Positions 1 through 48,019 of a stretch of DNA of 52,880 bases are shown here, piece by piece. Source of the stretch: an uncultured Candidatus Berkelbacteria bacterium (GTDB taxonomy: Bacteria; Patescibacteriota; UBA1384; CAJBMM01); assembly GCA_903954185.1 (NCBI GenBank), contig CAJBMM010000008.1, positions 1 to 52,880 on the forward strand. Reading direction: 5' to 3'. Within the stretch, counting starts at the first letter, position 1; each line of letters opens with the position of its first letter. Position numbers and translations under genes: made by a program. The notes under the pieces were generated by a model that was not told the DNA's origin, ran no database searches, and saw nothing but the letters and a program-made list of their open reading frames with translations.

Positions 1-94
1 ACTGGTCTTTAGCTCCCAGATGAGCAATGTTGGATATGTATTTCATGAGCCGAGTATACCCATGAAATCCAAAGTTTAAATAGATCTGTTGCAT
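1..94 (-). CDS. 5' part of an unidentified small gene, cut by the window edge
   Basis: An open frame starts at ATG 94-92 and runs off the window edge after 31 codons without a stop. It begins MQQIYLNFGFHGYTRLMKY. An AAGGAG Shine-Dalgarno lies just upstream with a short 4-nt spacer. The Shine-Dalgarno and the ATG both lie in a strong hairpin (92-124). No family is recognised from 31 residues. It follows the secreted orphan at 181-1209 on the same strand. Confidence is moderate because only the start is visible. Confidence 0.5.
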   Translation of the reverse strand, partial: MQQIYLNFGFHGYTRLMKYISNIAHLGAKDQ

Positions 95-124
95 ACTGCT
101 CCTTATTCCTTGGAGTCCAGTATG
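92..124 (-). promoter_or_regulatory. Hairpin hiding the Shine-Dalgarno and start codon of the edge gene
   Basis: On the minus strand CATACTG (124-118) pairs with CAGTATG (98-92), and CTCC (115-112) pairs with GGAG (102-99). There is a 2-nt bulge and a 9-nt loop. GGAG is the ribosome site and the last ATG is the start codon, so both are base-paired. This is what a translational switch or RNA thermometer looks like, but function is inferred from pairing only. Confidence 0.5.
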
Positions 125-180
125 TTAATGAACTTTTGCAATCTCTAAACTTCTACTACGTTAGAATACACTTGATCATT

Positions 181-8314: not shown

Positions 8315-8338
8315 AACAAAGCCCCGAGGGGCTTTGTT
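8315..8338 (-). terminator. Terminator of the 54-aa mini-gene
   Basis: AACAAAGCCCC (8315-8325) pairs perfectly with GGGGCTTTGTT (8328-8338). It overlaps the stop codon of the mini-gene and is followed on the minus strand by GTTTTAT. It is symmetric, so it may also work on the other strand. Confidence 0.85.
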
Positions 8339-8501
8339 AGCCATCGGGACCATACGGCCTGGGATAAGTGTCCCAATAGCCAGAACCTTCAACAGAACCA
8401 AGCCACCTTGCCCGTAACACAACCCAAAATAGAGTTGCGATCAAAACTACAGCTAACAACAACAGGCATAGCACGGAAAATACTGCTCGCATTGAACTCA
8501 T
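8337..8501 (-). CDS. 54-aa single-pass membrane mini-protein (orphan)
   Basis: Family not recognised. ATG 8501 has GAGGT upstream and the frame ends at TAA 8339-8337. Residues 5-29 are strongly hydrophobic (AVFSVLCLLLLAVVLIATLF and on), followed by the basic RARW and a short Tyr/Pro/Gly tail ending YPRPYGPDG. That suggests an N-in, C-out single-pass membrane peptide. It has its own promoter (8531-8559) and a perfect terminator at its stop. Codon use (CTG, CGG, AGG, CCC) is visibly GC-richer than uvrC or proS. It is one of five such genes here. Confidence 0.72.
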   Translation of the reverse strand: MSSMRAVFSVLCLLLLAVVLIATLFWVVLRARWLGSVEGSGYWDTYPRPYGPDG

Positions 8502-8530
8502 TGCATGACCTCGGACGTCAGGATACTCAA

Positions 8531-8559
8531 ATCGTATGCTTCTGTAATTTAATTGTCAA
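8531..8559 (-). promoter_or_regulatory. Promoter of the 54-aa mini-gene
   Basis: TTGACA (8559-8554), a 17-nt spacer and TACGAT (8536-8531) on the minus strand. The predicted start is about 8524, giving a 20-25 nt leader that holds the Shine-Dalgarno. Confidence 0.75.
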
Positions 8560-8571
8560 TCTTATATTTAT

Positions 8572-8598
8572 ACGACAAAGCCCCAGCGGCATTGTCGT
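8572..8598 (-). terminator. Hairpin terminating the 127-aa mini-gene
   Basis: ACGACAA (8572-8578) pairs with TTGTCGT (8592-8598), and GCC (8580-8582) with GGC (8588-8590), with one mismatch. The stem shares GGGGCTTTGT with the next terminator at 8315-8338. The U-tract is poor (ATAAATAT). Confidence 0.6.
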
Positions 8599-8619
8599 GC
8601 CCGCCAGGGCAAACCCCCC

Positions 8620-9003
8620 TTACTCACCGTCATCTTCGCCGCATCGTGGCAACGGACCGTCGCCCCTCATCGGCCTAGCTGCAGCATTCGCTTCTGCTCG
8701 GCCGATCTCGCGCCCCGCCCAGAAACACGCTTCACTGAGGGCAATAACAAGTCCAATAATCGCGTCGCTGTCTGCCACGCCCTGCCCATAAAGACTGCGG
8801 CATGCTTGGAGAAGCTGGTGGCTACCTGCTGCAACAACTGCACAACCAGTTTTGCCATCTGGGCGCACAACTTTGCTATCTTTCAGTTGTTGTGTAATCA
8901 CGTTCCATGGAACCCTCGCACCGGTGAAGGTAAGTACCAACTCAGCTGGATTACCCACAACCGTTAGCGAAATGCCATCCCCAGACGTCCCAATCGTAAT
9001 CAT
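8620..9003 (-). CDS. 127-aa orphan mini-protein, GC-rich
   Basis: Family not recognised. The ATG has GAGGTGACGT upstream, and a TTGACA-17-TAGTAT promoter lies 30-58 nt before it. The N-terminal half alternates hydrophobic and polar residues (ISLTVVGNPAELVLTFTG, probably beta). Residues about 60-105 look helical (HQLLQACRSL, AIIGLVIALSEACFWAGREI), and the tail is Gly/Asp/Pro-rich and polar. There is no signal peptide. Base composition is much richer in G+C than the flanking uvrC and proS. It is followed by its own hairpin and then by the 54-aa mini-gene in the same direction. Confidence 0.7.
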   Translation of the reverse strand: MITIGTSGDGISLTVVGNPAELVLTFTGARVPWNVITQQLKDSKVVRPDGKTGCAVVAAGSHQLLQACRSLYGQGVADSDAIIGLVIALSEACFWAGREIGRAEANAAARPMRGDGPLPRCGEDDGE

Positions 9004-9032
9004 ACGTCACCTCGCGCAGAGTAGATGGACAA

Positions 9033-9061
9033 ATACTATAATAATGAGTAATTTATGTCAA
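9033..9061 (-). promoter_or_regulatory. Promoter of the 127-aa mini-gene
   Basis: TTGACA (9061-9056), a 17-nt spacer and TAGTAT (9038-9033). The -35 box lies inside the last codons of proS. Confidence 0.75.
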
Positions 9062-14277: not shown

Positions 14278-14307
14278 TTGACTTGGTCTAATTTGATGCT
14301 CTATAAT
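14278..14307 (+). promoter_or_regulatory. Promoter driving the candidate ncRNA
   Basis: TTGACT (14278-14283), an 18-nt spacer and TATAAT (14302-14307). It points away from lepB into a region without a supported ORF. Confidence 0.6.
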
Positions 14308-14313
14308 TATAAT

Positions 14314-14476
14314 CGTAATGAGTGCGAGCTTGATGCTTATGCTGATAACTCTCCGAGAGCGATCACTCGTAATGCTCCCCAAGTCTATTTGGGGATTGGT
14401 AAAAGGTCGCGTAGCCGTAGATGTTATCGCGACCTTTGAATTTATTTAAAAAAAACACCCCTCACGAGGTGTCTTT
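14314..14476 (+). ncRNA. Candidate structured small RNA between lepB and tsf
   Basis: About 160 nt run from a good promoter to a terminator. Hairpins seen: GAGTG with CACTC enclosing CTCT-CCG-AGAG; CCCCAA-GTCTA-TTGGGG; and a 10-bp stem AAAGGTCGCG with CGCGACCTTT. A 43-codon frame from ATG 14318 has no Shine-Dalgarno and is not favoured. It does not match what I know of 4.5S, 6S, tmRNA or RNase P RNA. Existence is inferred from promoter, folding and terminator. Confidence 0.45.
14455..14472. terminator. Bidirectional terminator between tsf and the ncRNA
   Basis: ACACCCC and GAGGTGT form a 7-bp stem (one G-U) with a TCAC loop. It is followed by CTTTTATT on the plus strand and by eight T residues on the minus strand, so it ends both tsf and the candidate RNA. 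Confidence 0.85.
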
Positions 14477-14498
14477 TATTATTAATTTGCCTAATTAT

Positions 14499-14957
14499 CT
14501 AATCTCTTACGCCTAATTCTACTCTAGAAAATTTTCCAACCTTAATATTCTCACCAGTTTTGCCCACAACATCGGTAATTAAATCTTTAATGTTTTTAGA
14601 AGAGTCTTTAATAAATGGCTGCGCTAATAAATCTTCTAAACTCTTAGGATCCATAGAGGCGACTTGCATCACCAAATCTTTAGCCAGCTCTTTAAAAGAA
14701 TCTGTTTTAGCTACAAAATCTGTTTCACAGTTTAATTCTAAAATTGCGCCAATTCTTCCACCGTGACTATACGTTACTACCAAACCTTGAGTTGTTTCTC
14801 TTTCGGCACGTTTTTCGGCAACTGCAACACCTTTTTTCTGTAACAATTCTAAAGCTTTATTCTCATCACCAGATGCTTCTTCTAAAGCCTTTTTTAAATC
14901 CATAACACCCATACCAGTTCGTTCACGTAACATTTGAATTTTTTCTAAATTATCCAT
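14499..14957 (-). CDS. tsf: Elongation factor Ts, short form
   Basis: Guanine-nucleotide exchange factor for EF-Tu. Seen: the N-terminal UBA-like region (LRERTGMGVMDLKKALEEA) and the core signature CETDFVAKTDSF at about 77-88 with its TDFV contact motif. It has 152 aa against 283 in E. coli; the second core subdomain and the coiled-coil are absent, and the chain ends soon after the first core subdomain. The Shine-Dalgarno AGAGGAA lies within the end of rpsB. The rpsB-tsf operon has a 1-nt gap. Confidence 0.95.
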   Translation of the reverse strand: MDNLEKIQMLRERTGMGVMDLKKALEEASGDENKALELLQKKGVAVAEKRAERETTQGLVVTYSHGGRIGAILELNCETDFVAKTDSFKELAKDLVMQVASMDPKSLEDLLAQPFIKDSSKNIKDLITDVVGKTGENIKVGKFSRVELGVRD

Positions 14958-16316: not shown

Positions 16317-17393
16317 ATGGAAATTAATTTTACTCAATTAGTCGATCCTTTAATCAAACGCAGAGATGAAATAGAAGCAAAGCTCTCTTTGTCTTTTGAT
16401 GCTTTTGATCAGCAAAGTAATGTTTCTCTCTCTGGTGAACTTAAAGAGTTGAATCAAATAATATCTCATTACCAAAAATATATTGCCTTAAAGACAAAAG
16501 TAGATCAGGCTCAAGCCATTTTATCTCAAGAAACAGACGCAGACCTTGTGGCAATGGCACAAGAAGAAATTTCTGAAAGCGCAGATGAATTAGAAAAAAC
16601 TCATCACGCGCTACTCGTTTCATTCATCCCACAAGACCATCACGATAAAGGCAACACTATTTTAGAAATTCGCTCGGGCACGGGTGGTGACGAAGCAGAG
16701 CTTTTTGCTAGCGATATATTTAAGATGTACTCAAAATATGCCGAAAAAAAGGGTTGGGCAGTCAACACTATAGATTCAAGTATCACTCCGCTTGGGGGTA
16801 TTAAAGAAATTGTTTTCCAAATTTCTGGTTATGGTGTTTATGGCCAACTAAAATACGAAAGTGGTGTACATCGAGTACAACGCATTCCAACTACCGAAAA
16901 ATCGGGCCGCATTCACACCTCTGCTGCTACAGTTGCAGTATTACCAGAAGCAATAGAAACAGAAATTAACATCGAAGCTAAAGATTTGCGCATTGATGTT
17001 TATCGCTCAAGTGGGAACGGAGGCCAATCTGTTAATACCACCGATTCTGCAGTGCGCATTACCCACATACCTAGCGGGTTAGTTGTAACATGCCAAGACG
17101 AAAAAAGTCAGCTAAAAAATCGCGATAAAGCTATGAAAGTACTCAGATCGAGATTATTAGTGCTAGAAGAAGAAAAAACCGCTAAAGAGCGAGGAGATAT
17201 GCGCCGTTTGCAAATTGGCAGTGGCGATAGAAGCGAAAAGGTTAGAACTTATAACTTCCCTCAGGATCGAATAACTGACCATCGAATCAACGAGTCTTGG
17301 CACAATATGGTTTCGATACTTGATGGAAATCTAGACCCTGTTGTTTCTAGCTTAATTAATGCTGATCAACAAGCAAAATTAGCAAATTTATAA
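16317..17393 (+). CDS. prfA: Peptide chain release factor 1
   Basis: It reads UAA and UAG and triggers peptide release. Seen: GGQ at 235-237 ([18 protein letters not shown]), the codon-recognition PxT-type motif as P191-T192-T193 in [14 protein letters not shown], and [14 protein letters not shown]. At 358 aa it is full length. No strong Shine-Dalgarno (AAAGTGG, distant). An extended -10 (TGCTATACT) near 16275 may give it its own promoter. It is followed by its methylase gene prmC. Confidence 0.97.
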
Positions 17394-17411
17394 TAAATAA
17401 CTTCCATAATT

Positions 17412-17439
17412 TTGCATTTTGCACTTTGCATTTTGCACT
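17412..17439 (+). repeat. TTGCATT/TTGCACT heptad repeat before prmC
   Basis: TTGCATT-TTGCACT-TTGCATT-TTGCACT, four exact heptads alternating in pairs. It begins 18 nt past the prfA stop and ends 10 nt before the prmC ATG. Confidence 0.8.
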
Positions 17440-23101: not shown

Positions 23102-23136
23102 ATTTTAATTTTGTATTTTTGATTTTGCATTAATTT
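23102..23136. repeat. Heptad repeat forming the gatA 3' end
   Basis: ATTTTAA-TTTTGTA-TTTTTGA-TTTTGCA-TTAATTT on the plus strand. It contains the gatA stop codon and encodes the tail KINAKSKIQN. The lysS 3' end carries the same words. Confidence 0.7.
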
Positions 23137-24580
23137 TGTGCCACTCGGTTGATACCTCAAAGGCCGATGCCACCTTAAATAGCTTCTCTTCATCAAAATG
23201 ATTAGCAATTATCTGCATACCAATTGGCAAGCCTTGTTCAAATCCGCATGGAACAGAAATACCGCACAAATTTGCTACGTTTACGGGCACTACCAGTAAA
23301 TCTGCCATCCACAATTTTAGTGAGTCATTTAAGTCCTCATTGGTTTTAAAAGGCATAGTTGGAGAAACCGGCCCAACCATTACGTCTACTTCTTTAAACT
23401 TTTCACTAAATTGAGCCTTAATCATGCGCTGCACTTTACGTGCCCGATTATAGTATTGATCGTAAAAACCAGCCGAAAGTGCAAATGACCCAAGCATAAT
23501 TCTTCTTTTTGCCTCATTACCAAATTTTTGACGCGATTTATAATACACCTCAATAAGATTATCCACGTTTGCGTCTTCGTTTGCAGAAACACCATATTTA
23601 ATTCCATCGTATCGCTCTAAATTGGTAGAAACTTCAGAAGGGACGATCACCATATATGTTGCCAATGATTCTTCTGCCAACGGAACAGAAATATCGATTA
23701 TTTCTGCCCCTAATTTTTCAAATTGCCGGATTGCTGCATTAACTGCCTCGCGAATCTTAACATCAACGGCCTCACCCATAAATTCTTTCACTACACCTAT
23801 CTTCATGCCCTTAATATCTTTGCCAATTGCCGCCACATAATTTGGCACCGGAATTTTGTATGAAGTACTATCGCCCGTATCTGGTTCTGCTAATATTCGT
23901 AGTAATTCGGCCGCATCGGCTACAGATCTGGTAAAGGTTCCAACCTGGTCAAGTGATGACGCCATGGCAATTACGCCATTTCTCGATACTCTGCCATATG
24001 TTGGCCGCAAACCAACTGTATTAGTCCAAGATGCAGGCAAACGAATGCTTCCGCCAGTATCGGTACCTAAAGAAAATATGCTCTGGTCGGCCGCTACAGA
24101 GGCTGCCGATCCGCCAGAAGATCCGCCAACAACTCTGCTAGTATCCCAGGGGTTTTTTGTCATGTTATATGCCGAATATGCGGTTGTAGTTCCCATCGCA
24201 AATTCGTCTAAATTAGTTTTGCCCACAATTACCGCGCCCGCATCTTTTAGCAACCTAGTTACATGGGCATCGTATGGAGGAATAAAATTATCCAACATCT
24301 TAGAAGCCGCCGTGGTACGCACTCCAGCAGTGCAAATCACATCTTTCAAACTTCCAGGTATACCATCGATATTGCTTTTTAATTCTCCTCGACTTCGTCT
24401 TTCATCGCTCTCTTTCGCCGAATTCAAAGCCTTATCTTCTGTAATCGTTAAAAAGGCATTAACTTCTGCATTTTTTTGCTTGATATTTTTAATACAATGC
24501 TGAGTAAGCTCGGCAGATGATACTTTCTTCTCATTTAAAAGTTGGGCCGCTTCGTTAATTGTTAAATAATCTAGTTCCAT
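23105..24580 (-). CDS. gatA: Asp/Glu-tRNA amidotransferase subunit A
   Basis: The amidase subunit that frees ammonia from glutamine for GatB. Amidase-signature triad: K79 (PGSLKDV), cis-S154 (GGSSGGSAA) and S178 (TDTGGSIRLP), the same numbers I recall for S. aureus GatA. At 491 aa it has the family length. Its start codon shares one base with the gatC stop (TAATG). The last residues, KINAKSKIQN, are encoded by a heptad repeat and match a stretch of the LysS tail. Confidence 0.97.
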   Translation of the reverse strand: MELDYLTINEAAQLLNEKKVSSAELTQHCIKNIKQKNAEVNAFLTITEDKALNSAKESDERRSRGELKSNIDGIPGSLKDVICTAGVRTTAASKMLDNFIPPYDAHVTRLLKDAGAVIVGKTNLDEFAMGTTTAYSAYNMTKNPWDTSRVVGGSSGGSAASVAADQSIFSLGTDTGGSIRLPASWTNTVGLRPTYGRVSRNGVIAMASSLDQVGTFTRSVADAAELLRILAEPDTGDSTSYKIPVPNYVAAIGKDIKGMKIGVVKEFMGEAVDVKIREAVNAAIRQFEKLGAEIIDISVPLAEESLATYMVIVPSEVSTNLERYDGIKYGVSANEDANVDNLIEVYYKSRQKFGNEAKRRIMLGSFALSAGFYDQYYNRARKVQRMIKAQFSEKFKEVDVMVGPVSPTMPFKTNEDLNDSLKLWMADLLVVPVNVANLCGISVPCGFEQGLPIGMQIIANHFDEEKLFKVASAFEVSTEWHKINAKSKIQN

Positions 24581-24861
24581 TACAACACCTGCTTAACTTT
24601 AATTAATCCATCCTCAGACATTGGGCAGTTTTTTAGCAATACATCGCGCATATTGTTATTAATTACTTCGTCTTCGCGAAAAACATTAACGAGTCCGTTA
24701 ACTTGTTCAGCGAAGTCATTTAGTTTAATTTGCTGTAGATGATCGACATATTTAAGCACGTTAGAAAGCTCACCCAAATACTTATCTATCTCATTTTCTG
24801 CGATTTCTATGCGGGCTAATTTGGCAACATGTACAACGGTTGTAGAATTTATGTTTGACAT
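24580..24861 (-). CDS. gatC: Asp/Glu-tRNA amidotransferase subunit C
   Basis: 93 aa, normal for GatC, the small helper that wraps around GatA at the GatB interface. Seen: VVHVAKLARIEIAENEIDKY near the N-terminus, LSNVLKYVDHLQQI, and FREDEVI, the family pattern. First gene of gatC-gatA-cyclophilin-HEPN-like-gatB. No Shine-Dalgarno; a consensus-like promoter places the transcript start at the ATG. Confidence 0.94.
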   Translation of the reverse strand: MSNINSTTVVHVAKLARIEIAENEIDKYLGELSNVLKYVDHLQQIKLNDFAEQVNGLVNVFREDEVINNNMRDVLLKNCPMSEDGLIKVKQVL

Positions 24862-24901: not shown

Positions 24902-24930
24902 TTGACATTCATTATCACTAGTAGTATAAT
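24902..24930 (+). promoter_or_regulatory. Perfect consensus promoter of the 58-aa mini-gene
   Basis: TTGACA (24902-24907), exactly 17 nt, TATAAT (24925-24930). It is the best sigma-70-type promoter in the window. The leader is about 42 nt. Confidence 0.88.
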
Positions 24931-24978
24931 TTTCATATCCCAATCTGCCCGAAGATATCGGGTTCAAAGGAGCACGGT

Positions 24979-25155
24979 ATGCTACAACGGTTTGGCCAGC
25001 GTTGCCGGCGCGAGGTGCGAAACAAGCACCACGAGGCTCCTCCAGCAAAGAGGATTGCCGCCATGCTGCGGGATGCTGCTAAGGCATCCCAGTCTGCCAA
25101 GCTTGTTGCCCGCGGCGACAGGCAGCACGGCGTCAACGCAACGCCAGAGCCGTAA
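24979..25155 (+). CDS. 58-aa basic orphan mini-protein, GC-rich
   Basis: Family not recognised. AAAGGAG lies 7 nt before ATG 24979 and the frame ends at TAA 25153-25155. It is highly basic with an Arg/Lys/His-rich first half (QRCRRE, KHHE) and an Ala-rich helix-like middle (RIAAMLRDAAKASQSAKLVA), ending TPEP. It has no membrane segment or signal. It may bind nucleic acid, which is only suggested by charge. A perfect promoter lies upstream and two hairpins downstream. It is much GC-richer than its neighbours gatC and the HD gene. Confidence 0.7.
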   Translation: MLQRFGQRCRREVRNKHHEAPPAKRIAAMLRDAAKASQSAKLVARGDRQHGVNATPEP

Positions 25156-25185
25156 CGGCGCTTTTCCGGAATGCTATAAGATCGA

Positions 25186-25209
25186 GCGGCGGGTCTGCAC
25201 ACCCGCCGC
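25186..25209 (+). terminator. GC-rich hairpin after the 58-aa gene
   Basis: GCGGCGGGT (25186-25194) pairs with ACCCGCCGC (25201-25209) around a 6-nt loop. There is no U-tract directly after; it probably acts with the next hairpin. Confidence 0.55.
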
Positions 25210-25239
25210 CCGCCCACATTATCCTATCAAAATAATTTT

Positions 25240-25260
25240 ATCCCACGTTTGGGATTTTTT
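25240..25260 (+). terminator. Intrinsic terminator of the 58-aa gene
   Basis: ATCCCA (25240-25245) pairs with TGGGAT (25250-25255) around a CGTT loop, followed by a run of T. Confidence 0.85.
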
Positions 25261-25261
25261 G

Positions 25262-25291
25262 TTGCTAATATATTTTATTTATGATTATATA
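25262..25291 (+). promoter_or_regulatory. Probable promoter of the 59-aa mini-gene
   Basis: TTGCTA (25262-25267), an 18-nt spacer and TATATA (25286-25291), directly after the preceding terminator. Weaker than the first. Confidence 0.5.
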
Positions 25292-25335
25292 TGCTTAAAC
25301 CGCAACCCATCGCGGCAACCACACTGGAGGAAAGC

Positions 25336-25515
25336 ATGTCCCTCGAGTACGTACGCGACCTCTTCCCCTTGCCGGCCGATTCGTACCTCAAGATCAGTGC
25401 TGGTATCCTGAACCCCTTCGGGTTCGATTGGTACAAGGCGTGGGTCATACTCCTGAAGCGCTTTGAGCTGATGAGGCGCTGGGAGGAGATGATAGCTGTA
25501 AAGGGGCTCGCGTGA
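25336..25515 (+). CDS. 59-aa orphan mini-protein, GC-rich
   Basis: Family not recognised. ATG 25336 is chosen over an in-frame ATG 15 codons earlier because GGAGG lies 7 nt before it. It is rich in aromatic and basic residues, with two probable amphipathic helices (YVRDLFPL and AWVILLKRFELMRRWEEM) around a Pro/Gly turn. It ends with TGA. Own promoter, strong Shine-Dalgarno and a strong GC terminator. It is tandem with the 58-aa gene but separated by a terminator, so it is independently transcribed. Confidence 0.72.
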   Translation: MSLEYVRDLFPLPADSYLKISAGILNPFGFDWYKAWVILLKRFELMRRWEEMIAVKGLA

Positions 25516-25561
25516 AGAGGCACATCCTCTGCCTGCCGGGCGGGTTCCGGCACACAAAATC

Positions 25562-25585
25562 GGGGGCGGCCGCGGCACCGCCCCC
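25562..25585 (+). terminator. Terminator of the 59-aa gene
   Basis: GGGGGCGG (25562-25569) pairs with CCGCCCCC (25578-25585) around an 8-nt loop, followed by ACTTACTTT. It also separates the gene from the convergent HD gene. Confidence 0.8.
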
Positions 25586-25598
25586 ACTTACTTTAACT

Positions 25599-26212
25599 TT
25601 ATATATCCCACGGGATATTATTTTTTATAAATTCCTTCTTTAATTCAATCTTAACTGATTTAAGTAAGCCCCTCAATTCTGGAATTTCTTCAACCACGCT
25701 ATTGGCATAATTTGGTATATCATAAGCATGATTACAGTTTTTAAGCCCAACTAAAGTCATATGGCTCATTGCCTCTATTTTATCCAAAGCCAAAACCAAA
25801 ATTGCTTCTTTTGATTTTTTAAATTCAAACTCTTCCCATAAACTCCGCACCATTTTACCCAAATTAACTCCAAGATCTGCTTCTATCTTAAGTATGGCGG
25901 CAATTTCACCGTTTTGTTTATCTGCGCCAGAAACTATGCCCTGTCGCACCAAAACAGAATCTATATCATCTGTAATTGCCTCTACTAAATCGTGCACCAT
26001 AGCAATTTTGATAGCTTTAAGAACATCTAATTGCAAATTTAGATCTTCGCAAACTACCATAACCATAAATGCAACACGCCACGAATGTTCTGCTACCGAT
26101 TCTTTTTCAATATCATCGGCCGCATTTTTATATCGCACCACGCTCTTCAATTGTTCGCTTAGTCTAAAAGCTTCAAACAAATTATTTGCGTTGTAATGTT
26201 TTGCATTTGCCA

Positions 26213-26213
<1 letters not shown>
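25599..26213 (-). CDS. HD-domain phosphohydrolase (YfbR/HDDC2-like)
   Basis: 204 aa. HD-superfamily metal ligands are visible: AEHSWRVAFM (first His), MVHDLVEAITDDID (the HD pair plus the EAI-DDI motif of the 5'-deoxynucleotidase branch), and a later Asp in LALDKIEAM. Members hydrolyse deoxynucleoside monophosphates, which suits nucleotide clean-up; the substrate is inferred. The ATG overlaps the ligA stop by one base (TAATG), so it is translationally coupled. Confidence 0.85.
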
Positions 26214-28775
<2,562 letters not shown>

Positions 28776-41887: not shown

Positions 41888-42034
41888 TCATCCTGAGCCC
41901 CGCGAAGGATCTCTTTAGGCTTGTCATCTCGAGTATGGCGAGAGATCCCGTCAGCTTCGGTCAAAGCGAGATCTCTCACCCCGCTTAGCGAGGTATTCGA
42001 GACGCTTTGCGTTTCGCCGAGCTCGAAATGACAT
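41888..42034. repeat. Cluster of REP-like palindromes upstream of secA
   Basis: TGTCATCCTGAG with CGAAGGATCTC, then TGTCATCTCGAG with GAGAGATCCCG and GCGAGATCTCTC, then CGAGCTCGAAATGACA in inverse. Several short stems nest. The 41858-42164 gap (307 nt) otherwise holds only the mini-gene promoter. Confidence 0.7.
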
Positions 42035-42074: not shown

Positions 42075-42102
42075 TTGACTTTATGCTTTATTAAAGTATA
42101 AT
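42075..42102 (+). promoter_or_regulatory. Promoter of the 95-aa mini-gene
   Basis: TTGACT (42075-42080), a 16-nt spacer and TATAAT (42097-42102), about 55 nt before the start codon. Confidence 0.78.
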
Positions 42103-42164
42103 TCCAATCAGCTGCTAGCCTTAAGAATACACTACTCGGAACTTCGCTTCAAGGAGGAGCGCTC

Positions 42165-42452
42165 ATGCGCATAATAGGCATTGAAAATGGATGCGATGTC
42201 AACTACGACGTATCATCCATCGCTACACTTTGCTGGCATGATAATCCAAGACTCGATGGAATATGGGAGGCGTTCTACTCTGGCGTCTTTGCCTTTACCG
42301 CGGGATGCAAAATCTGGCTGGCCACGTTCCAAGGCCACTATGGCGATGAAGCACGCGAGCCAGCCACACGCCTAGTCGCAGCCATCACTGCGGCAGCAGC
42401 GAATGGAGACAAGTTTTTCGATGTTGATGCTTGGAAAAGGGAGAACCGCTAG
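42165..42452 (+). CDS. 95-aa orphan mini-protein, GC-rich
   Basis: Family not recognised. AAGGAGGAG lies 6 nt before the ATG. Two possible strands (MRIIGIENG, YDVSSIATLCW), a middle with aromatic residues (GIWEAFYSGVFAFTAGCKIW), an Ala-rich helix (ATRLVAAITAAAANG) and a charged end (DAWKRENR). Three Cys (10, 23 and 48). No signal peptide. Own promoter and a 12-bp terminator; GC-rich compared with secA and serS. Confidence 0.72.
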   Translation: MRIIGIENGCDVNYDVSSIATLCWHDNPRLDGIWEAFYSGVFAFTAGCKIWLATFQGHYGDEAREPATRLVAAITAAAANGDKFFDVDAWKRENR

Positions 42453-42475
42453 CCAAAAGCGAGTCATCTGCTACG

Positions 42476-42503
42476 GGCGTCGGGAGCATCCGCTTCCGGC
42501 GCC
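42476..42503 (+). terminator. Terminator of the 95-aa mini-gene
   Basis: GGCGTCGGGAGC pairs with GCTTCCGGCGCC (two G-U pairs) around ATCC, followed by TTCGACTTTTATTTT. It sits just before the end of the convergent serS. Confidence 0.85.
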
Positions 42504-42511
42504 TTCGACTT

Positions 42512-43797: not shown

Positions 43798-43828
43798 ATA
43801 GCCAATCTGATTTATAACCAGATATTCC

Positions 43829-43880
43829 TTAATTTTGCACCTGTAGTGAGCCTGTCGAACCTATTTTGGATTTTGCATTC
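43829..43880. repeat. Composite repeat forming the lysS 3' end
   Basis: Heptads ATTTTGG-ATTTTGC (43863-43876) lie beside AGTGAGCCTGTCGAAC (43845-43860), then TTTTGCAC up to the stop. It encodes the LysS tail. Confidence 0.65.
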
Positions 43881-46229: not shown

Positions 46230-47873
46230 GTGTCGAAAAAATACATTTTTGTAGCAGGCGGTGTAATGAGTGGTGTTGGTAAGGGCACGGCCGCTGCCTC
46301 TATCGCCAAGATATTGCAACATAAAGGGTACGAAATTACGGCTGTCAAAATTGACCCCTATATTAATATTGATGCTGGCACAATGAACCCAGTCGAACAC
46401 GGCGAGGTATTTGTTACCAACGATGGTGACGAAACTGATCAAGATGTAGGATCTTACGAGCGTTTTCTCGAGCGCCCTATACCATCGGGTAATTATATGA
46501 CTACTGGACGAGTTTATTTAAGCGTAATTAACCGCGAGAGGGCACTGAAATATAACGGAAAGTGTGTCGAAGTTGTTCCACATGTACCACAAGAGGTTAT
46601 CGACCGCATTAAAAAAGCTGCGACTGCCAATAAAGCAGATATTACTATTATCGAAATCGGTGGAACTGTTGGGGAGTATCAAAATATTTTATTTTTAGAA
46701 GCTGCCCGCATGATGAAGCTAGCTAACCCCAAAGATGTTTTGACGATACTGGTAAGCTACCTACCCATTCCAAAAAGTGTTGGCGAGATGAAAAGTAAAC
46801 CTACTCAATACGCATCCAGAACACTAAATGAAACGGGGCTACAAGCAGACTTTATTCTTGCACGATCAGAAGAGCCTGTTGACGAACCCCGCCGTCGCAA
46901 ACTTAGCGTATTTTGTAATATAGATCCCGGATCTGTGATATCATCACCAGATGTTTCAAGTATATATCTGGTTCCAGCATTATATGAAGAGCAACATTTA
47001 GGCGAGAAAATTCTTAAAAAATTGCACCTTAAACCAAAAAAAGATGAGATGACAGATTGGATAAATTGGGCTAATCAAATACAAACTTACAATACAGAAG
47101 TTAAAATTGGCATCATCGGCAAATATTTTTCGACAGGGAGTTTTGTCTTATCTGACGTATATATTTCTGTAATTGAGGCAATAAAACACGCCGCCTGGGC
47201 AAACAATCGCAAGCCAGTGCTAACATGGCTCAATTCCGAAGATTACGAGCAAGATCCAAAAAAGGTTAAGGAATTATCTAACTTTGATGGAATTGTTATT
47301 CCAGGTGGATTTGGTAATCGCGGGGTAGAAGGAAAGATCTCTGCGATTAAATATATTCGAGAAAATAAAATTCCATATTTAGGATTATGTTATGGAATGC
47401 AGTTAGCAACAGTGGAATTTGCTCGTCATGTTGCTGGAATGAAAGATGCCAATACTACCGAAATAAACCCTAAGACTACCCATCCGGTTATTCATATAAT
47501 GCCCGAACAAGAAAAGAAGCTTTTAGCCTTAGACTATGGCGGCACAATGCGTCTTGGCGCCTACCCCTGCATACTAAAAGAAGGTACAAAATCATGCGAT
47601 GCTTATTCCCCCATGCTCCATGCTTCATGCTCCATGCTTCATGTCTCAGAGCGTCATCGTCATCGATACGAATTCAATAATCAGTATCGCGAAGAGTTAG
47701 AAAAAGCTGGGTTAATAATTGCTGGCACTTCTCCAGATGGTAAGATTGTTGAGATTATTGAGTTAAAAAATCATCCGTTCTTTGTAGCCAGTCAGTTTCA
47801 CCCCGAATTTCAATCTTGGCCACAAACTCCCCATCCCCTATTTCGCGATTTCATAAAAGCCGCCATTAAATAA
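46230..47873 (+). CDS. pyrG: CTP synthase
   Basis: Makes CTP from UTP, ATP and glutamine. GTG 46230 is the start (CGGAGG 5 nt upstream); an in-frame TTG 21 nt earlier has none. Synthetase domain: KYIFVAGGVMSGVGKGTAAAS, KIDPYINIDAGTM. Glutaminase domain: GGFGNRGVEGK, the nucleophile Cys in LGLCYGMQLA, and the His-Glu pair in QFHPEFQSWP. 547 aa. Before the conserved SERHRHRYEFN lies an insertion of about ten residues encoded by five CATGCTC/CATGCTT heptads. Confidence 0.96.
   Translation: MSKKYIFVAGGVMSGVGKGTAAASIAKILQHKGYEITAVKIDPYINIDAGTMNPVEHGEVFVTNDGDETDQDVGSYERFLERPIPSGNYMTTGRVYLSVINRERALKYNGKCVEVVPHVPQEVIDRIKKAATANKADITIIEIGGTVGEYQNILFLEAARMMKLANPKDVLTILVSYLPIPKSVGEMKSKPTQYASRTLNETGLQADFILARSEEPVDEPRRRKLSVFCNIDPGSVISSPDVSSIYLVPALYEEQHLGEKILKKLHLKPKKDEMTDWINWANQIQTYNTEVKIGIIGKYFSTGSFVLSDVYISVIEAIKHAAWANNRKPVLTWLNSEDYEQDPKKVKELSNFDGIVIPGGFGNRGVEGKISAIKYIRENKIPYLGLCYGMQLATVEFARHVAGMKDANTTEINPKTTHPVIHIMPEQEKKLLALDYGGTMRLGAYPCILKEGTKSCDAYSPMLHASCSMLHVSERHRHRYEFNNQYREELEKAGLIIAGTSPDGKIVEIIELKNHPFFVASQFHPEFQSWPQTPHPLFRDFIKAAIK
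47612..47646 (+). repeat. CATGCTC/CATGCTT heptad array inside pyrG
   Basis: CATGCTC-CATGCTT-CATGCTC-CATGCTT-CATGTCT, five units, translated in frame as PMLHASCSMLHVS. The two-unit alternation copies the pattern of the trxB and prmC arrays. Confidence 0.85.
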
Positions 47874-47903: not shown

Positions 47904-48013
47904 CGTGTCATTCCTGCGCAGGTCATTCGAATACACCAAAGAACCTGATCCTGTCGAACGTGCAGGAATCTACATAATTACGAACAATGGATACCCACCT
48001 TCGCAGGTATGAC
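47904..48013. repeat. REP-like element between pyrG and dut
   Basis: Opens TGTCATTCCTGCGCAGG, carries GTCATTCGA and CCTGTCGAACGTGCAGGAATC, ends with GGAATCTACATAATTA at 47965-47980, followed by a second short palindrome. Shares the opening, inner word and 16-mer with 13518-13620. Confidence 0.75.
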
Positions 48014-48019
48014 AATTTG

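Follow-up and report, generated by a model that had tools for sequence, protein, structure and literature searches.

Two GC-rich mini-genes between gatC and an HD-domain gene belong to a genome-wide set of self-contained, probably acquired single-gene units in a Candidatus Berkelbacteria bacterium

The window analysed here, a stretch of 52,880 nucleotides, makes up contig C8 in its entirety. It belongs to an uncultured Candidatus Berkelbacteria genome (998,031 bases in 43 contigs, 97% complete, genome-wide GC content 36.4%), of which every contig was read and in which genes were called with a simple script. At the locus, gatC (24580-24861, minus strand; Pfam GatC, 1e-14) and an HD-domain gene (25599-26213, minus strand; Pfam HD_3, 3e-31) flank two short open reading frames, P1 and P2, both on the strand opposite to the two flanking genes. 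The standard genetic code applies, and an alternative one was ruled out, as host genes use TGA as an ordinary stop. Among the named genomes scanned, GatA (window 23105-24580) was most similar to that of Nitrospirae (50%, vs. 45% for Saccharibacteria).

P1 is preceded by a promoter matching the consensus at all 12 positions (TTGACA-17-TATAAT, 24902-24930, plus strand), a perfect arrangement found six times in the genome compared to about 0.4 expected, and by a Shine-Dalgarno site (AAAGGAG, 24966-24972) that ends 6 nt before the start codon. The frame itself (24979-25155, plus strand) runs for 58 codons from the ATG at 24979 to the stop at 25155 and would encode a strongly basic orphan product (pI 11.5). 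Downstream of it lie a GC-rich hairpin with a 9 bp stem (25186-25209) and a U-tailed intrinsic terminator (25240-25261), in which ATCCCACGTTTGGGAT (hairpin at 25240-25255) is followed by a T run. Thus, each element of the anatomy attributed to P1 in the preliminary description (perfect promoter, AAAGGAG, a 58-codon basic frame and two hairpins) was located by its coordinates.

The same description had placed another promoter ahead of P2. The promoter-like sequence read directly at this point (TTGCTA-17-TTATAT, 25262-25290, plus strand) is degenerate and weak and was absent from the list produced by the consensus promoter scan, so this part of the claim is weak, whereas the GGAGG site, the 59-codon frame and the GC-rich terminator are confirmed. 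The Shine-Dalgarno site (GGAGG, 25326-25330, plus strand) lies 5 nt before the ATG at 25336 of an orphan frame that extends to the stop at 25515, and the product is predicted with moderate confidence as a small protein of three helices (pLDDT 77). A strong GC-rich terminator hairpin (25561-25586) can be read on both strands and could serve P2 as well as the convergent HD gene, and a second hairpin with a T run for P2 (25603-25627, plus strand; hairpin at 25603-25618) overlaps the HD gene at its 3' end. With GC contents of 63% for P1 and 57% for P2, the two genes are atypical for a genome of 36%, and the local GC content of the locus (0.53-0.66) exceeds that of its flanks (0.32-0.38), as had been claimed from visual impression.

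Three further units of this kind had been proposed at 8315-9061 and 42075-42503 of the window, and all of them are present. On the minus strand, P3 (8620-9003) encodes an orphan of 127 aa with a poorly predicted structure (pLDDT 54), has its promoter at 9033-9061 and ends in a GC-rich terminator, and P4 (8337-8501), with a promoter at 8531-8559 (TTGACA-17-TACGAT) and a terminator at 8317-8336, encodes an orphan of 54 aa with one hydrophobic segment. On the plus strand, P5 (42165-42452) encodes an orphan of 95 aa and is provided with a promoter (TTGACT-16-TATAAT, 42075-42102), a Shine-Dalgarno site (AAGGAGG, 42151-42157) and a terminator hairpin (42475-42504).

None of the five products matched a domain in Pfam, PHROGs, NCBIfam or PADLOC. 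The search for homologs in relatives that had been called for returned nothing from 379 other genomes of the phylum, in a run that recovered the self-matches of four of the five products (that of P4 was missed); a separate concatenated search was also negative, but recovered only two of six self-matches and is correspondingly weak. Neither viral contigs, searched with four of the five products, nor phage and plasmid records yielded relatives, and a phage or plasmid origin of the units of the window was rejected on these grounds. When the products were compared by tblastn with their own genome, each found itself only, revealing neither paralogs nor mutual similarity. Therefore, P1-P5 are not a single small-protein family, and the idea of a dispersed small-protein system finds no support in the sequences, which show no kinship, nor in the genome-wide set described below, which mixes small orphans with full-size enzymes. 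Genes for type I toxin-antitoxin systems and for small secreted proteins likewise have short frames with strong promoters and terminators of their own, but P1-P5 matched no family, and no antisense RNA or partner was identified.

Recurrence of the design at other loci, which the preliminary description had named as support for a family, was confirmed. A simple Shine-Dalgarno-based scan for frames with a GC content of at least 49% (range 49-65%) listed about 47 non-overlapping units genome-wide, some doubtful ORFs included, with a median of 141 codons, and 33 of the 47 are solitary, without another unit within 1.5 kb. Both the GC content and the GC3 of genes are bimodally distributed in this genome, a two-component model having a far better BIC than one component, and the units make up the second GC mode. 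Consensus promoters were more frequent before units than before host genes (5/52 vs. 7/684, p = 8e-4), as were six-base Shine-Dalgarno sites (16/32 vs. 100/509, p = 2e-4). In the leaders, only these promoter and Shine-Dalgarno words were enriched, plus a weak TTTACAT, when a motif common to the units was sought. A minority of the unit products have known folds; the larger ones match ordinary families such as adenylosuccinate lyase (PurB, C37:28459), radical SAM (C17:19432), ECF sigma (C28:4499) and DHDPS-like (C27:17026) proteins, and one is a prepilin with an H-X9-DG tail. What is shared is the design, and its uniformity, although real, is no more than any autonomous transcription unit would show. 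The wide spread of GC3 among the units (0.45-0.82) indicates that they have no single source.

With the units aligned on the promoter, their GC content changes with position. Upstream of the promoter it equals the background and within the promoter it is 0.24; the leader reaches 0.46, the coding sequence 0.55 and the stretch right after the stop 0.54, whereas beyond about 120 nt past the stop it is back at background (0.39). For host genes that have comparable promoters, the GC content is 0.33 in leaders and 0.39 in coding parts. Thus, GC steps up after the promoter and down after the terminator, so that the raised GC follows the predicted transcript. Retroposition of mRNA was weighed, as the GC step adjoins the predicted transcript start, and was rejected because the units have promoters.

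The distribution of the units was compared with parts of two related genomes, 361 kb of G001, which belongs to the same family and is the closest in a comparison set whose other members are of the same class, and 400 kb of G009. Genes of the high-GC class are nearly missing from these sequences, and when only genes of 150 codons or more were counted, 1 of the 29 GC-rich ones had a homolog in G001 compared to 222 of the 560 host genes. At three unit sites, the gap between the same flanking genes was much shorter in relatives, with 1234 nt here vs. 60 nt on contig C28, 635 nt vs. 54 or 62 nt on C31 and 1365 nt vs. 62 nt on C34. As judged from this near-absence and from the three sites, which belong to units other than P1 and P2, the units appear to be young in this lineage. 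For the P1-P2 site itself, the G001 contig stops short inside gatA, and in G009 other genes occupy the interval between gatC and ligA, so that the gap is at least variable there. The distinct composition, the near-absence from relatives and the three gaps of about 60 nt all support the earlier suggestion of acquired cassettes.

Taken together, these data point, with a probability of about 0.68, to P1 and P2 belonging to a set of about 47 single genes acquired by this lineage from GC-richer organisms and retained as self-sufficient intergenic units. We infer the donors, the route, the trimming, the expression and the function as follows. Foreign DNA would be taken up, probably by natural transformation through competence (ComEC), integrated via illegitimate recombination and then pared down by deletion bias to a functional minimum, which would be the reason why the raised GC is bounded by promoter and terminator. 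A ComEC gene is present in the genome, and Com-dependent natural transformation has been demonstrated in Saccharibacteria (PMC10633639). The unit promoters are AT-rich and host-like in look, and so may not have arrived with the genes. Each unit would be transcribed from a sigma70-type promoter and translated from a strong Shine-Dalgarno site, with an intrinsic terminator closing the transcript, and equipped in this way it could function irrespective of site and strand, leaving its housekeeping neighbours undisturbed. The products would be lineage-specific accessory proteins. The mixture of small orphans with ordinary enzymes fits independent single-gene acquisition better than a single element.

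Transfer of single genes has been reported in Patescibacteria, with up to 13% of genome length attributed to HGT (PMC12455944, Gios et al. 2025). In that study, as here, foreign genes occur singly in patescibacterial genomes that are streamlined, but most of its events had other Patescibacteria as their source and were detected through similarity, whereas the present units are much GC-richer than their host, mostly orphans and laid out as self-contained stretches from promoter to terminator.

That the units are instead old lineage-specific genes, not foreign, in which selection for RNA stability or expression maintains the high GC, seems unlikely. It would account for a raised GC that reaches beyond the codons over the whole predicted transcript, leader and terminator included, and for promoters that resemble those of the host; nevertheless, GC3 values as high as 0.8, the presence of recognisable widespread enzymes among the units, their near-absence from a genome of the same family and the empty sites all argue against it.

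A mobile system not recognised so far, be it integron-like, transposon-like or phage-borne, that carries one transcription unit per move was also considered, as the units have a uniform promoter-ORF-terminator design and single-gene size and are inserted in intergenic gaps on either strand. We regard it as improbable. Integron cassettes are likewise small single genes that differ in origin and are for the most part unknown, but they mostly lack a promoter and form arrays, whereas the units are dispersed. The genome has a single Pfam phage-integrase match (PF00589), as would be expected for a housekeeping Xer protein, and no further tyrosine recombinase domain was found, which speaks against a system of the integron type; no recombination-site sequence shared by the units, nor any sequence common to their edges, was seen. 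Phage morons, single genes with their own promoter and terminator and a deviant composition that lie between unrelated genes, resemble the units in the autonomous promoter, the one ORF and the terminator, although the promoter of P2 is weak; morons, however, sit in phage genomes, whereas the units of the window have housekeeping genes as neighbours (gatC, HD, uvrC, proS, secA and serS), and no phage or plasmid relatives of them were found in the records searched. The inserted stretches on C28, C31 and C34 also contain dispersed repeats, but a link to these abundant repeats was discarded, since with gap length matched they were not enriched at unit sites (53% vs. 60%).

It is similarly improbable that the P1-P2 region encodes structured small RNAs, with the frames being chance ORFs in GC-rich DNA. 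The hairpins at the locus are strong, and antisense frames of 92-100 codons are also open in this DNA. To score coding capacity, a codon model trained on the long GC-rich genes of this genome was applied to all six frames, and the annotated frame was the best of the six for P1, P2, P3 and P5. The score of P1 was modest (0.12 bits/codon) and that of P2 higher (0.34 bits/codon), all other frames being lower in each case. Codon usage thus supports the P1 and P2 frames as coding, as do the GC3 of 0.8 in P2 and the good Shine-Dalgarno sites at correct spacing. A known RNA family was ruled out as an explanation by the absence of any Rfam match in the window.

Finally, an unrecognised mechanism that places whole single transcription units, complete from promoter to terminator, in the intergenic gaps of this lineage, sampling the genes of GC-rich neighbours one by one, is very improbable.

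Reduced, host-dependent bacteria are commonly regarded as gene losers. If the acquisition of single genes from GC-richer organisms is confirmed, a reduced genome would have recently gained dozens of single, independently expressed foreign genes, providing a natural set of one-gene acquisitions in which to study the retention and expression of foreign genes, along with a catalogue of lineage-specific proteins, which may play a part in host interaction.

Several other features were observed along the way. A GC-rich gene on contig C39 (12706-13680, locus L030) resembles a retron-type reverse transcriptase, as judged by eye from its sequence. In the window, a stretch at 14278-14500 (plus strand), opposite in strand to lepB and tsf, carries a promoter (TTGACT-18-TATAAT) followed by a hairpin-rich segment that has a terminator, together with an ATG frame of 43 codons without a Shine-Dalgarno site, and may be a small RNA or another mini-gene. 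On contig C9 (7548-7830, locus L009), a consensus promoter is followed by structured and seemingly non-coding sequence with a terminator, which makes this locus a small RNA candidate. Dispersed intergenic repeats are abundant genome-wide, all kinds together covering about 84 kb, and include palindromic (GTCATTCCTGCGCAGGCAGGAATC, GTCATCCTCGA..TCGAGGATCC) and tandem-like (AATGCAAAATGCAGAATGCA) kinds; those of the window lie at 2017-2106, 17387-17437, 27798-27860, 41922-42033, 43822-43879, 47599-47643 and 47906-48015. A 140-base sequence is common to window positions 1-140 and the ends of contigs C33, C37, C40, C41 and C42, and probably represents the border of a repeated element at which the assembly broke.
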